A stretch of 64,000 bases of DNA from Verrucomicrobiota bacterium (GTDB lineage Bacteria > Verrucomicrobiota > Verrucomicrobiia > Limisphaerales > UBA9464), in contig VHCX01000011.1 in the NCBI GenBank assembly GCA_016871615.1, forward strand, positions 1 through 64,000, written 5' to 3'. This document shows, one piece after another, positions 6,445 to 57,131 of this stretch (positions are counted from its first letter, which is position 1; each line of letters opens with the position of its first letter). Below the pieces are notes generated by a model, which saw only the letters and a program-made list of their open reading frames with translations, had not been told where the DNA came from and did no database searches. Position numbers and translations under genes: made by a program.

Positions 6445-7272
6445 TCACTGGAAGTGGGGCTCGTTGTCGCGGTTCCAGAAACGGGCCACGGCCTTGCGTT
6501 GGGCCGGGTCCTTGTGGAGCTGGCCGATGATGTCGAGGCGGCGCTTCGACTCGGCGTGGCCGTCGCAGAAGACGATCGAGGTGCGGCCGGCGTGGACCTC
6601 GAGGGGCCATTGGCGTTCCTCGTACATCCCGATGAACCCGCTCCAGTCGCGGTCGCCCTTCTTCTTGAGGTCCCAGTTGCTGTCGCCGAAGGAGATCATC
6701 TCGGTGGGGTTCTTGACCGACGCCTCCTTGGTCTCGCCCCAAACCGGGTCACCGAGGTAGACCCCGAGTCCGGTGTTGGGCGTCTGCCCGGCGAAGGCTC
6801 CCCAGACGTTGTAGCCATAGCTCATGAAGAAGCTGCCGCCCGGCCGAAGGCGCACTTCGTCCTTGAGGTAGCCGAGCTTGGCCGGTGCGCCGCTGCCGAA
6901 CTTGGGGATCCACTGCGATGGGCGGGGTGCAGCCGGGCAGTGGAAGATGTCGGTGTTCGGGCCGCCCTGCATCGAGCTGCGCAGCAGGGCCGGCCAGATC
7001 CAGGCCGATCCGTCGCCGCCGTCGATGCCCACCGGATAGACCCCGTGATCCATGATGTAGGTCATCGTGGCCAGGCCCATCTGGCGCAGGTTGCTCAGGC
7101 ACTTCACCCCGTTGGCCTTGGCCTTGGCCTTCGACAGCGCCGGCAGGAGCATGCCCGCCAGGATGGCGATGATGGCGATGACCACCAGCAGTTCGATGAG
7201 GGTGAAGCCCGCGACCGTCGGGAGGTGGCGACGGCGGGTAAGGAGTTTCCGGGGGGGTCTTTTTGGTGTCAT
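6445..7272 (-). CDS. Prepilin-type N-terminal domain protein (type II secretion pseudopilin-like) with DGH C-terminal motif
   Basis: [50 protein letters not shown]...[17 protein letters not shown]. Confidence 0.88.
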
Positions 7273-9569: not shown

Positions 9570-10456
9570 GGGCGGGCCGGGATGGCGGGGGCCGATGTGG
9601 CTGGGGCGGCCGGCGTGGAGGTCCGGGACGCCGTCCGGAAGGCCGGGCTGTCGAGGTGGTCGGCCAGCGAGGCCATCTGGGCCTCGTCGAGGATGCCCCC
9701 CTGCTGCAGGTCGAAGGCGGGCATCAGGCTGCCCGGCTTTCCGTTGCGCACCCAATGCGCCCAGTAGCCCCGGTCCGTGGGATGCTTGAGGGCCCGCAGG
9801 TCGGGCACCATCGAGGCCTTGTGCTCGGCGTCGTGGCAGATGCCGCAGGCCGTCGCGTAGAGCTCGGCGCCCTTCCTGCCCACGGTCGGGGCCACGTGGC
9901 ACGTGGCGCATTCCCCCCGGAAGACCGCCTGCCGGTCGGCGGCGGCGACCGCGAGGTTGCGCTGACGGTCGGCATCGCGCAGGCGCCCGGGTTCCGGCGG
10001 GGCGATCTGCACCTTGACGTTGAGCAGGACCGACCCGACGTCGCTCAGCACGGTGACGGTCTTGACGATCGTGCCTGACTTCCCGATGAGGTTCATGGTG
10101 CCGGAGATCTCGCCGCGCTGCCCCGGGGCGATCACCCAGGGCGTCTCGGGCAGTTTGGCCACGGTGCAGCCGCAGCTGGTGCGGGTGCCGGTGATGGTGA
10201 CGGCGTTGGTCCAGACGTTGGTCAGCGCGAAGCGGAAATCGACGCTCTGCTGCCCGTCCTGCGCCCGCAGGTCCCGGGTCTGGGCATCCCAGGCGAGGGC
10301 CTGCGGGAAATTCAACGCCGGGGCCGGCAGCGCCCGGCGGAAGGCGGCGGTGTCTAGGCCCGCCGGCGGGGTCGGTGCGCCGGTCTGGGCCAGCAGCATC
10401 GCTCCGCCGAGGGTCGCCGCCATCCACGCCATCCCACGTCTCCATCCCGCGTTCAT
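9566..10456 (-). CDS. DUF1573-like protein with C-terminal cytochrome c region (two CxxCH)
   Basis: MNAGWRRGMAWMAATLGG...TNAVTITGTRTSCGCTVAKLPETPWVIAPGQRGEI; CATCH and CGICH motifs; 4-bp stop/start overlap with tmk (GTGA). Confidence 0.82.
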   Translation of the reverse strand: MNAGWRRGMAWMAATLGGAMLLAQTGAPTPPAGLDTAAFRRALPAPALNFPQALAWDAQTRDLRAQDGQQSVDFRFALTNVWTNAVTITGTRTSCGCTVAKLPETPWVIAPGQRGEISGTMNLIGKSGTIVKTVTVLSDVGSVLLNVKVQIAPPEPGRLRDADRQRNLAVAAADRQAVFRGECATCHVAPTVGRKGAELYATACGICHDAEHKASMVPDLRALKHPTDRGYWAHWVRNGKPGSLMPAFDLQQGGILDEAQMASLADHLDSPAFRTASRTSTPAAPATSAPAIPARP

Positions 10457-41292: not shown

Positions 41293-42072
41293 ATGAGCCC
41301 GAAATACCAGAAGGCATCTGATCCGTCGGCCTTCACGCTGATCGAGCTGCTGGTGGTCATCGCCATCATCGCGATCCTTGCCGGCATGCTCCTGCCCGCC
41401 CTCGCGAAGGCCAGGTCCGCGGCCCTCAAGACCCTCTGCGCCAGCAACCAGCGCCAATGGGGCATCGCGGTGAACCTCTACGCCAGCGACAACGAGGACC
41501 GCTTCCCGGACAACACCGACGGCACCGGCCTGAGCTGGCTGGGTCTGAACGCGAAGAACTTCACCGACAAGTACCTGATGAAGAACCAGGCCCCCCGGTC
41601 GCGCAACGACCGCAAGGCGGCCAACCATGTGCTCTTCTGCCCGACCGACCAGTGGAACCGTCAGGCCGACGCCTGGAGCTACTCGGTCAATGTCAGCCGG
41701 CCAGTCTTCATCGGTTACTTCTTCCTGCCCGGACGCGTCGACGGGGCCTGGGACTACAATTCCGACGGCCTCGGCGCGTGGCACTACCGGAAGAAGCTCG
41801 GCGGCGAGTTCTCGGCGGCGCCGATCGTCATCGACCGGCTTCAGGGACATGGTGCCCACTCGACCAACATCCTCCATCCGGACATCAAGTGGATCATGCC
41901 CGAGAACGGCCGCCCGACCCGCACGGCCAACCATGCCGGCGCCCGGGGCGTGCCGACCGGTGGCAACTTCCTCTTCGAGGACGGCCATGTGCAGTGGATC
42001 CAGTCGCGGGGCGTCACCTTGGGATCGAGCCAGAGCCAGTGGCAGTGTTTCTACGGCATCCGACTGCCCTAG
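41293..42072 (+). CDS. Prepilin-type N-terminal domain protein (pseudopilin-like) with DGH motif
   Basis: [74 protein letters not shown]...[13 protein letters not shown]; ends TAG. Confidence 0.88.
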
Positions 42073-43227: not shown

Positions 43228-44514
43228 TCAGTTCACGTAGACCAGCAGGACCGGAGCGAGGGTCTCGAGCTGGTGGTGGTTTCGGATGGCCTCGACCTGG
43301 GCCGCGGTGAGGATCTGGCCGGCCGGGGCCAGCAGCATGCCCCCGGTGGTCTTGACGCCCGCCGCGAGGGTCATGCCCGCCTCAAGCTCGCCCGGCGGGA
43401 TCTCCCGCTCCTGACGGGGCAGCGAGGCCTGGGGCAGGGCCCGCAGCAGGGTGCGCACCGCCTCGGGATCGAATCGCCAGCCGCTGCCCAGGGTCACGGC
43501 CTCGACCGCCTCGGCGTGGGGCCTGGGCAGCTCGGCGTAGGCCACCGCGACGGCGAGGATGCGGGACAACCACGGGATCTCCTTGCCGGCCAGCCGGTCC
43601 GGGTAGCCACGTCCGTCGAACTGCTCGTGGTGTCCCCGGATCACCCTGCCCACCGGCTGGAGGTGCACCACGAAGTCCACGAGTTCCTCGCCGAGGACCG
43701 GGTGCTGCTCGATCTACGCCTGCTCGCCGGGGGTGAGCTTCTCGGTCTTGTTCAGCCACTTGCGGATGAGGCCCCGCGGCGTGCCCACCAGGCCGATGTC
43801 GTGCAGCCAGGCCGCCAGTTCCAGCGTCTGGCGCTCGGACTCCGGCAGCTTGAGGGTGTCGGCCATCGCCCGGCACAGGCCGAACACGCGGCGGGCCTGC
43901 GTGCCGAGGGTCGGGTGGAAGGACTGCAGCACCTTGAGGCAGAGCTGGACCGAGTGGTGCAGGTTGAGTTCGAGGGCCGAGTTGAGTTCGACCAGCCGCC
44001 GGCGGTGCTCCGCCTCGGCGTTGGCCCTCGATTCCAAGGCCTGGTTGAGCGACACGAGCTGCTCGTTCATCGCCAGCGTCGTGGCCTGCAGCAAGGTGTT
44101 GCGCACGATCAGCTCATGGCGTTGCACCGCGTTGCGGACGGTGGCCAGGAGTTCCTCGCGGATCCAGGGCTTCACGATGAAGCGGTAGATCTCGCCCTTG
44201 TTGATGGCGTCGATGACCGTGTCGAGGCTCAGCACGGCCGTGATGAGGATGCGGGTCGCGTCGGGCTGGATCTGCTTGGCCCGGGAGAGGAAGTCCAGAC
44301 CGGTCATCCCCGGCATCTGGTAGTCGGAGATGATCACCGCGAAGGCCTCCTCCTGGAGCGCCTTCAAGGCCTCCTCGGGCGAGGCGCAGGCGGTGACGCC
44401 GTAGCGCTCGCGGCGCAGGGTCTCGCGCAGGGCGATCCGCACGATGTCCTCGTCGTCGAGGACGAGGATCTGCTTCAGCGACGGTTCCAGGCTGGGTTTG
44501 GCAGGGGGTTTCAT
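43228..44514 (-). pseudogene. Response regulator with HD-GYP domain, interrupted by one in-frame TAG (43714..43716)
   Basis: REC: QILVLDDEDIVRIAL...VIISDYQMPGMTGLDFL...YRFIVKPW; HD part LAAWLHDIGLVGTP; ...KLTPGEQA*IEQHPVLGEELVDFVV...HHEQFDGRGYPDRLAGKEIP in the same frame (43714-43228=486, divisible by 3). Confidence 0.8.
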
Positions 44515-46457
44515 CGGCCGGGAGGGTGGTCGAACAGATCCTTGAGCCTGCTCTGGATCTCGGTTTCCTGCAGGTCGGAGGGCAGGGTGAGGTGCGCGTC
44601 CTTCAGCCAGTCCACCGGGATCTCGTCCTCGTTGCGGCCGATGATCTGCAGGATCGACCGCACCGGTGGCCGGCGCTGCCGGACCTCTCGGAGAAGTCGG
44701 CCGATGCGTTCCGGGGCGTCCGCTGCGACCTGCACGAGCACGCCGTCGAACTTGTAGTCCATCGACTCGAGGGCGCCAAGAGCCTGGTCCTCGCGGTTCT
44801 CGGTGACGACGAAGAGCCCGGCCCGCCGGAGCGTGTCCACCGTCGTGTCGAGCGACCTCCCGGCGGGCCCGACCACGAGCAGGGTGCGGCGCCGGCGCTC
44901 CTCGTCCTCATGGACCCGCTCCTGCTCGGAGAAGTCGGCCTCCGGCAGCCAGATGCGGAAGGTGGTGCCCTGGCCCTCGACCGACTCCACGGAGATCGCC
45001 CCATGGTGCTTCTCGACGAAGAGGCGGGCGTTGTAGAGGCCCAGCCCGGATCCCCGGTTCACCGGCTTGGTGGTGAAGAACGGGTCGAAGATCGTGCCGA
45101 GGTGGCGCTCCGGGATGCCGACCCCGTTGTCGCGCACGGCGACACAGATGGCCGGCAGCCTCGGGAAGGTGCCCTGCAGGTGCGCCGGGCTTTCCGGTTC
45201 GGTGATGCGGTGGGTGGTGCACCACAGGTGCCCGTTGTGGGGCATGGCGTCCGAGGCGTTCATGATCAGGTTCAGGAACACCTGGCGCAGCTCCACCGAA
45301 TCCACGTAGACCGGCAGCGCCTTCGGGGTCAGCCCCGACTCGAAGCGGATGCGCCTGGGCAGGGTCTTGCGGACCAGTTCCAGCAGGTCGCTCACCTGCT
45401 GGTTGAGGTCGTGGTAGCCGCATTCGCCGAGGCGGCCCTGGTGCAGGCTCAGGACCCTGCGGACCAGCGCGCTGGCCTGCAGGGCGTTGCGCTTGATCAG
45501 GCCCAGGCTCTCGTGCAGCGGGTCGTCCGCAATCTCGGCGGGCTCGAGGGTCTCGGCCAGCGCATGGATGCCGGCGAGGATGTTGCCGAAATCATGGGCC
45601 ATGCCCATGGTCAGGGTGGCAATCGTGTCGCGCCTGGCCGTCGAGCTGAGCCGTCGCTCGGCGATGGTCTGCCGGGAGACGTCCATCCAGTTGCCCTCGA
45701 AGCCCAGCAACAGGCCGCCGTCGGTCCGCAGGGCCTGCCGGTGCTCCAGGATGTAGGCCACGCGGCCGGTGCGGGCGTGGCGGATGCGGAAGTGGGCGCT
45801 CAGGCCGCCCTCGCTGCGGAGCGCCCGCCGGATGTGGCTCTGGACCCCGGCGAGGTCCCCCTCGTGGATGGCGTTCCAGAAGACGTCGGACCGTTGGAGG
45901 AATTCCGACAGCGGGACGCCGGTCAGTTCCTCCAGCCGCGGGCTGGCGTAGTGGAACGACATGTCGCTGCGCTGGTTGAAGATGACCCCGGGCCAGCGCC
46001 TCATGAGGTTGTCCACCTCCGCCTCGGCCTTGAGCAGCCGGAGCCGGAGCTGCTGGTTGGCCTCGTCGCCAGGACCCGCCTGCGGCCAGGAGTCCTCCTC
46101 CAGGCGGGGCAGCGGCGGCGCGATGGACTCGATGTGGGCGAAGAGCCCCCCGGGAGCGCGGCCTCCCGACAGGCGGACCCCGGCGTCGGGATGGTCCGGG
46201 TGCCCGGGCAGGTCCGCAGTGCGGAATTCCTCCTCCGAGGCCAGCCACTATCCCACCGGGTCCTCCCAGTCGGCACACCGGTGGGTCAGGATCGATTGCC
46301 ACGGTCGGCCCGCCAGCGTGCCCGGGGTCTCGCCGAGCCAGCGGGCGAGGGGTTCATTGACCGACACGATCCGCCCCCCTGGGTCGAGCACGGCCAGCCC
46401 ACCGGTCAGCCAGTCGGATCTGGGCCGGTCGGGAGGGTGTTCGGGCATCGGTTCCAT
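44511..46457 (-). pseudogene. PAS-domain sensor histidine kinase with degenerate C-terminal receiver, interrupted by one in-frame TAG (46248..46250)
   Basis: MEPMPEHPPDRPRSDWLTGGLAVLDPGGRIVSVNEPLARWLGETPGTLAGRPWQSILTHRCADWEDPVG*WLASEEEFRTADLPGHPDHPDAGVRL... continues in frame (46248-44511=1737, divisible by 3) into MAHDFGNILAG, LRQVFLNLIMNASDAMP, VRDNGVGIP, GSGLGLYNARLFVEKHHG. ATGA overlap with the response regulator. Confidence 0.8.
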
Positions 46458-56336: not shown

Positions 56337-57131
56337 ATGAAGCCCCTTCCCCGCCAGAGCGCCTTCACGCTCATCGAACTGCTGGTGGTCATCGCCATCA
56401 TCGCCATCCTGGCCGGCATGCTCCTGCCGGCGCTGGCCAAGGCCAAGGTCAAGGCCAACGCCACCCGGTGCGTCAGCAACCAGAAGCAGCAGTACCTCGG
56501 CTATGCCATGTACTCGGCCGACAACCAGGACCTCATGCCGGCGCATGGCGACTGGGGCACGGTGGGTGGCGAGATCTGGTCCTCCACGCCCGGGGTGCCG
56601 CTGCGCTCGGCCCAGGGCAGGGCCAAGGTGAACATCGTGCACGACACCCGGGCCTGGGAGACCAACCGCCCGCTCAACGCCTACGTCCCCGCGCCCGAGG
56701 CCTTCCGTTGCCCGTCGGACAAAGGCGACAGCTACTGGGCCGCCGAGTCGAAGAAGGGGTGCTACATGGCCTGGGGCAACAGCTACCTCGTGATGTGGGC
56801 CGTCGACTGGTTCGGGGTGAAGCACATCACCGGCAACCTGGCGTCGCCCACGGTTGCGGGCGATTCCAAGCCCATCAAGAACTCCGAGATCGCCCTCGCT
56901 CCGGCCACCAAGATCCTCCAGGGCGACTGGCCGTGGCATGGCAGCCGCGATTCCGGCGACGGTCAGGTCAGCGGAGCCACCCGGGATCGGAGTCTCTGGC
57001 ACAACAACCGCGGCCAGCGGGGCTGGAACATGGCGTATGGTGACGGCCACGTGGCTCTCTTCCGATTCCCGAGGGACTACGACCCGTCGGACATGAACCA
57101 GAAGGTGGACGTCAACGGACCCTGGTGGTGA
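56337..57131 (+). CDS. Prepilin-type N-terminal domain protein (pseudopilin-like) with DGH motif
   Basis: [68 protein letters not shown]...RGWNMAYGDGHVALFRFP. Confidence 0.88.
   Translation: MKPLPRQSAFTLIELLVVIAIIAILAGMLLPALAKAKVKANATRCVSNQKQQYLGYAMYSADNQDLMPAHGDWGTVGGEIWSSTPGVPLRSAQGRAKVNIVHDTRAWETNRPLNAYVPAPEAFRCPSDKGDSYWAAESKKGCYMAWGNSYLVMWAVDWFGVKHITGNLASPTVAGDSKPIKNSEIALAPATKILQGDWPWHGSRDSGDGQVSGATRDRSLWHNNRGQRGWNMAYGDGHVALFRFPRDYDPSDMNQKVDVNGPWW

Follow-up and report, generated by a model that had tools for sequence, protein, structure and literature searches.

The window, that is, the whole stretch of 64,000 nucleotides analyzed here, is contig C11 of a Verrucomicrobiota genome (G000) of 3.83 Mb with 70% G+C, which was assembled in 183 contigs and is 95.6% complete with an estimated contamination of 3.5%. 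The window holds no tRNA. On its reverse strand lie two overlapping genes, one for a sensor histidine kinase (44511..46457) and one for a response regulator (43228..44514). An earlier note on this DNA had reported that each frame is broken by a single TAG (46250..46248 in the kinase and 43716..43714 in the regulator), that the two genes are translationally coupled and that domains remain recognisable in both; the coordinates, the stops and an ATGA overlap of the genes were confirmed from the sequence and the domains by Pfam. The kinase frame (46457..44511) has 648 residues and is open save for the TAG at codon 70 (46248..46250, reverse strand), in the N-terminal PAS region. Pfam identified PAS_4, PAS_3, HisKA and HATPase_c, and the translation reads as a sensor histidine kinase of PAS-PAS-HisKA-HATPase_c architecture, with a receiver-like stretch at its C terminus. 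It was 90.9% identical over residues 1-648 to the intact orthologue in the best-matching genome, G010.

The regulator frame (44514..43228) has 428 residues and is open save for the TAG at codon 267 (43714..43716, reverse strand). Pfam matched Response_reg and HD_5, and when the translation was read across the TAG both an LHDIG and an HHEQFDGRGYP motif were present. The TAG lies between the HD and GYP motifs, as had been noted before. The regulator was 92.5% identical to its intact G010 orthologue. HD-GYP domains usually hydrolyse c-di-GMP, and by family knowledge the receiver/HD-GYP protein is probably a c-di-GMP phosphodiesterase. The nearest NCBIfam family was NF053512 ('NosR family', receiver/c-di-GMP phosphodiesterases). 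The regulator resembles this family in having a receiver followed by HD-GYP, in its HD and GYP motifs and in the sensor kinase gene adjoining it, but it differs in that its score of 331 bits falls short of the cut-off (400), that it reads HDIGL rather than HDxGK and that it carries a TAG. The HDIGL reading is shared by the relatives, whereas HD-GYP proteins usually read HDxGK, and this may reflect a catalytic change. At 44511..44514 (reverse strand) the TGA stop of the kinase shares bases with the ATG start of the regulator; this ATGA overlap makes translational coupling of the two genes probable. A literature search found no paper on this kinase/HD-GYP operon.

Orthologues in related genomes

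The named records of the relatives were Verrucomicrobiota metagenome assemblies, with lakes and ponds as the source of many. The nucleotide match between the window and contig C183 of G010 spanned positions 9654 to 46480 and was syntenic over 37 kb. Among the 27 genes that could be compared across this region, the kinase and the regulator were the only two with an internal stop, and two interrupted neighbours are more than the background. The comparison of orthologues proposed in the earlier note gave sense codons at both sites in the relatives, and no aligned orthologue from the genus had a stop at either position. At the regulator site, G010 has CAG and the residue across the genus is Q, I or L. 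At the kinase site, G010 has GCC and the residue across the genus is Ala, Ser, Cys, Thr or Lys; nearly all close relatives have an Ala codon there, from which TAG is reached only by at least two substitutions.

We calculated dN/dS against G010 separately for the parts before and after each stop. The values were 0.097 and 0.059 for the regulator and 0.313 and 0.079 for the kinase, so that constraint on the kinase was weaker upstream of the TAG than downstream (0.31 versus 0.08). Since dN/dS was still low past both TAGs, either the stops are young when set against the split from G010 or the sequence is in error. These values cover the whole divergence from G010 and, for the age of the stops, show only that they are young. 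We also counted changes in the operon at positions that do not vary among the other members of the genus, and found 23 on the G000 branch as compared to 8 on that of G010. Taken alone this count was suggestive of relaxation specific to the G000 branch, but four intact control genes gave 28 versus 15, which did not differ significantly from the operon, and the excess is not clearly particular to the kinase and the regulator.

Of the loci examined from the wider Verrucomicrobiota, only two showed internal stops, a truncated-looking locus and the record from G009 (contig C140), which is another species of the genus. The G009 kinase orthologue has one TAG, while the regulator orthologue has both a TAG and a TGA as well as a shift of frame near its C terminus, all of them at positions other than those in G000. 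In G008, another member of the genus (95% complete), we found no regulator orthologue, the best hit being a distant receiver match (E 1.7e-19). Judging from these loci, the kinase/regulator pair is dispensable in the genus and tends towards joint loss; the unit was broken independently in two species and is perhaps absent from a third.

Internal stops across the genome

Sampled stretches of G000 amounting to 1.14 Mb were scanned for in-frame stops flanked on either side by a strong coding signal; ordinary junctions between genes, as judged from the downstream start codons, were set aside. The scan returned eight TAGs and one TGA; the kinase TAG, which is invisible to the scan, raises the number of TAGs to nine, or about one per 115 kb. 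Most of the interrupted genes carried exactly one stop. Besides the window pair, the signalling genes with one TAG encode an NtrC-type regulator (G000:C22:1063, reverse strand; Y in relatives), a hybrid histidine kinase (G000:C15:57458, forward strand; Q in relatives) and an HDOD protein (G000:C18:11590, forward strand; S in relatives). One TAG each was also found in genes for a flagellin (G000:C26:17548, reverse), a prepilin-like protein (C29:5485, forward), an aldo/keto reductase (C49:15931, reverse) and an ABC transporter (C13:41316, reverse). The TGA, in an adenylate/guanylate cyclase-type gene (G000:C4:64006, reverse), was the sole convincing internal stop of another kind in these stretches. 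By eye, no other flagellar genes were recognised within the 18 kb surrounding the flagellin gene.

Two-component genes appeared to be over-represented among the interrupted genes, with ~4 of ~28 affected as compared to ~6 per 950 genes in stretches that had not been chosen for stops (p = 0.0001, rising to 0.017 once the window pair is excluded). These figures serve as a guide only, since the gene totals are estimates (the ~28 derive from 18 matches for the receiver and 17 for HATPase, some of them in non-kinases or in shared proteins) and since the C22 and C15 stretches were taken because a stop had already been seen there. We do not claim that G000 carries more internal stops than G010. None of the internal stops in 449 kb of G010 was judged real, and the difference had a p-value of 0.02 with all sites but of 0.075 without the stretches chosen for a known stop.

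The earlier note had called for TAG to be counted against the other stops. TAG did dominate (9 of 10), but this agrees with what codon usage predicts: under three mutation models, 65-68% of nonsense mutations in G000 are expected to be TAG, and the observed share was not significantly higher (p = 0.08-0.12). Between 2.6 and 3.3% of coding substitutions in G000 create a stop. The view that two single amber hits are odd for neutral decay was thus not borne out, since TAG should make up some two thirds of the random nonsense mutations and one stop per gene fits a recent loss.

Decoding of TAG

In our first scan every convincing internal stop was TAG, which seemed to favour recoding, and we looked for the machinery that would read this codon as sense. 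Release factor 1 (prfA) was found above the cut-off and uninterrupted at G000:C39:24366-25430. The suppressor tRNA that had been suggested was not found, as none of 45 tRNAs, nor a further partial Arg-CCU tRNA, had a CUA anticodon, although a gene could have been missed in a genome that is 95.6% complete. The partial tRNA lies at the edge of contig C27 and was assigned as Arg-CCU by inspecting its loop by eye; ARAGORN does not call a tRNA at a weak tRNA-like match on C117 (19.8 bits). A search of G000 for PylS gave no match above the cut-off, the best scoring 28 bits or less against 178, and pyrrolysine at TAG was rejected on this ground; the sub-cut-off matches are presumably other class II synthetases. 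The residues found in relatives at the nine TAG sites were Q, A/S, Y, Q, S, D/E, Q, Q and Q, and their codons were mostly one step from TAG. With RF1 intact, no CUA tRNA found, mixed residues in the relatives and the expected stop spectrum, TAG recoding was dropped.

Shulgina and Eddy (2021, PMC8629427) trace some false calls of stop-codon reassignment to pseudogenes, whose in-frame stops most likely arise when certain codons undergo a single-nucleotide transition. Recoding of UGA to Trp has been described in the verrucomicrobial endosymbionts Ca. Organicella and Ca. Pinguicoccus, with genomes of 158-163 kb (PMC8204192). These share with G000 the phylum and the presence of stop codons within reading frames. 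However, in the endosymbionts the codon is UGA, the genomes are tiny and Ca. Organicella has the matching tRNA-UCA, whereas in G000 the codon is UAG, the genome has 3.8 Mb and 70% G+C, RF1 is intact and no matching tRNA was found.

Discussion

We consider it likely that the two-component unit lost its function recently, through two separate nonsense mutations, in a freshwater-type Verrucomicrobiota lineage. Sensor kinases with PAS domains of this type phosphorylate such receiver/HD-GYP regulators, and in the intact unit the PAS-domain kinase would phosphorylate the receiver/HD-GYP protein. RF1 should terminate normally at both TAGs, which would end the first kinase product after 69 residues and leave the regulator with its receiver and part of the HD domain, without the GYP half of the catalytic domain. 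We infer that the loss of one partner would have relaxed selection on the other, so that the second stop was tolerated. With a recent loss, a single stop per gene is expected. The earlier note had offered parallel decay of one signalling unit, base-calling or assembly error, and readthrough as its interpretations; the first is now the best supported, because both G009 orthologues carry independent stops, the regulator orthologue was not found in G008, other signalling genes are interrupted and no suppressor machinery was detected. In its single stops at codons only one mutation away from a stop, in the intact relatives, in the lack of a suppressor and in the independent decay of the unit in another species, the pair resembles bacterial nonsense pseudogenes, including cases of linked two-component loss. 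It differs from typical ones in being very young, with one stop per gene, low dN/dS beyond the stop and both partners affected alike. The dN/dS past the TAGs (0.059 and 0.079) speaks against any relaxation other than a recent one. The fragmented state of the assembly, in 183 contigs, also weighs against the gene-loss reading.

The main competing explanation is that the main allele is intact and that the TAGs are consensus errors or the rare bases of a minority strain. The 183 contigs and 3.5% estimated contamination agree with this, as do the otherwise intact genes with their low dN/dS and the single stop in most interrupted genes, and ~3 substitution errors per 10 kb would be enough to produce about ten stops in 1.14 Mb. 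On the other hand, random errors would not cluster in the two overlapping genes of one operon and in signalling genes, and a single error could not turn an Ala codon into the kinase TAG, at least two substitutions away, unless the codon had already changed. We regard this explanation as a minority candidate that deserves to be kept in mind. It is rather improbable that only the regulator is truly broken while the kinase restarts after its TAG as a working shorter protein without the first PAS domain, a variant of the gene-loss explanation that is not exclusive with it. An in-frame GTG at codon 148 and an ATG at codon 152 precede the second PAS domain and the kinase core, and the region before the TAG is the less constrained one (0.31 versus 0.08). 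However, the first of these starts lies 78 codons past the TAG, a GGAG directly abuts the GTG and so is badly spaced to serve as a ribosome-binding site, and the relatives align from codon 1.

Explanations in which the ribosome passes the TAGs fared worse. Low-level leaky amber readthrough occurs in bacteria, and near-cognate tRNAs that sometimes read the TAGs would yield each of the two proteins in a short and a long form; the coding constraint is indeed unbroken past both stops (dN/dS 0.06 and 0.08). Yet the low dN/dS reflects the whole divergence from G010 and hence only young stops, RF1 is intact and no CUA tRNA was found, neither TAG occurs in any other genome examined, which argues against a conserved programme, and the two sites have no obvious common context and differ in the residues that relatives carry. 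Programmed or leaky readthrough, likewise an interpretation in the earlier note, is accordingly judged quite unlikely. Still less likely is a lineage that tolerates TAG in signalling genes thanks to sufficiently frequent decoding by ordinary tRNAs, in which amber readthrough would control how much of the c-di-GMP and two-component proteins is made, with no dedicated suppressor tRNA. We give hardly any credence to a genome-wide reassignment of TAG to glutamine or pyrrolysine. The internal stops of G000 are nearly all TAG and the relatives have Gln at about five of the nine sites, but at the other four they have Y, S, D/E or A/S, TAG occurs only about once per 115 kb in a share that matches the codon-usage expectation, neither a CUA tRNA nor a PylS above the cut-off accompanies the intact RF1, and TAG appears to serve as the terminal stop of some genes, immediately before the start of the next gene.

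Recent loss of the linked sensor-regulator pair, the explanation that we prefer, is biologically a modest case, the breakage of a predicted c-di-GMP signalling unit. Such a loss can mimic stop-codon recoding in a G+C-rich genome because most nonsense mutations there give TAG. The residues in relatives, RF1, the tRNA anticodons and the expected stop spectrum together separate gene loss from recoding.

Other observations in the window

The gene at 41326-42072 (forward strand) gave only a partial match of 41% identity in the G010 contig, with a dN/dS near 0.9 and with syntenic flanks; this gene may have been replaced or may be fast-evolving. Three short stretches of the window (7109-7210, 41328-41413 and 56361-56489) were ~82-90% identical to one and the same G010 segment, and are probably repeated N-terminal prepilin-type signal sequences that are multicopy in these genomes.
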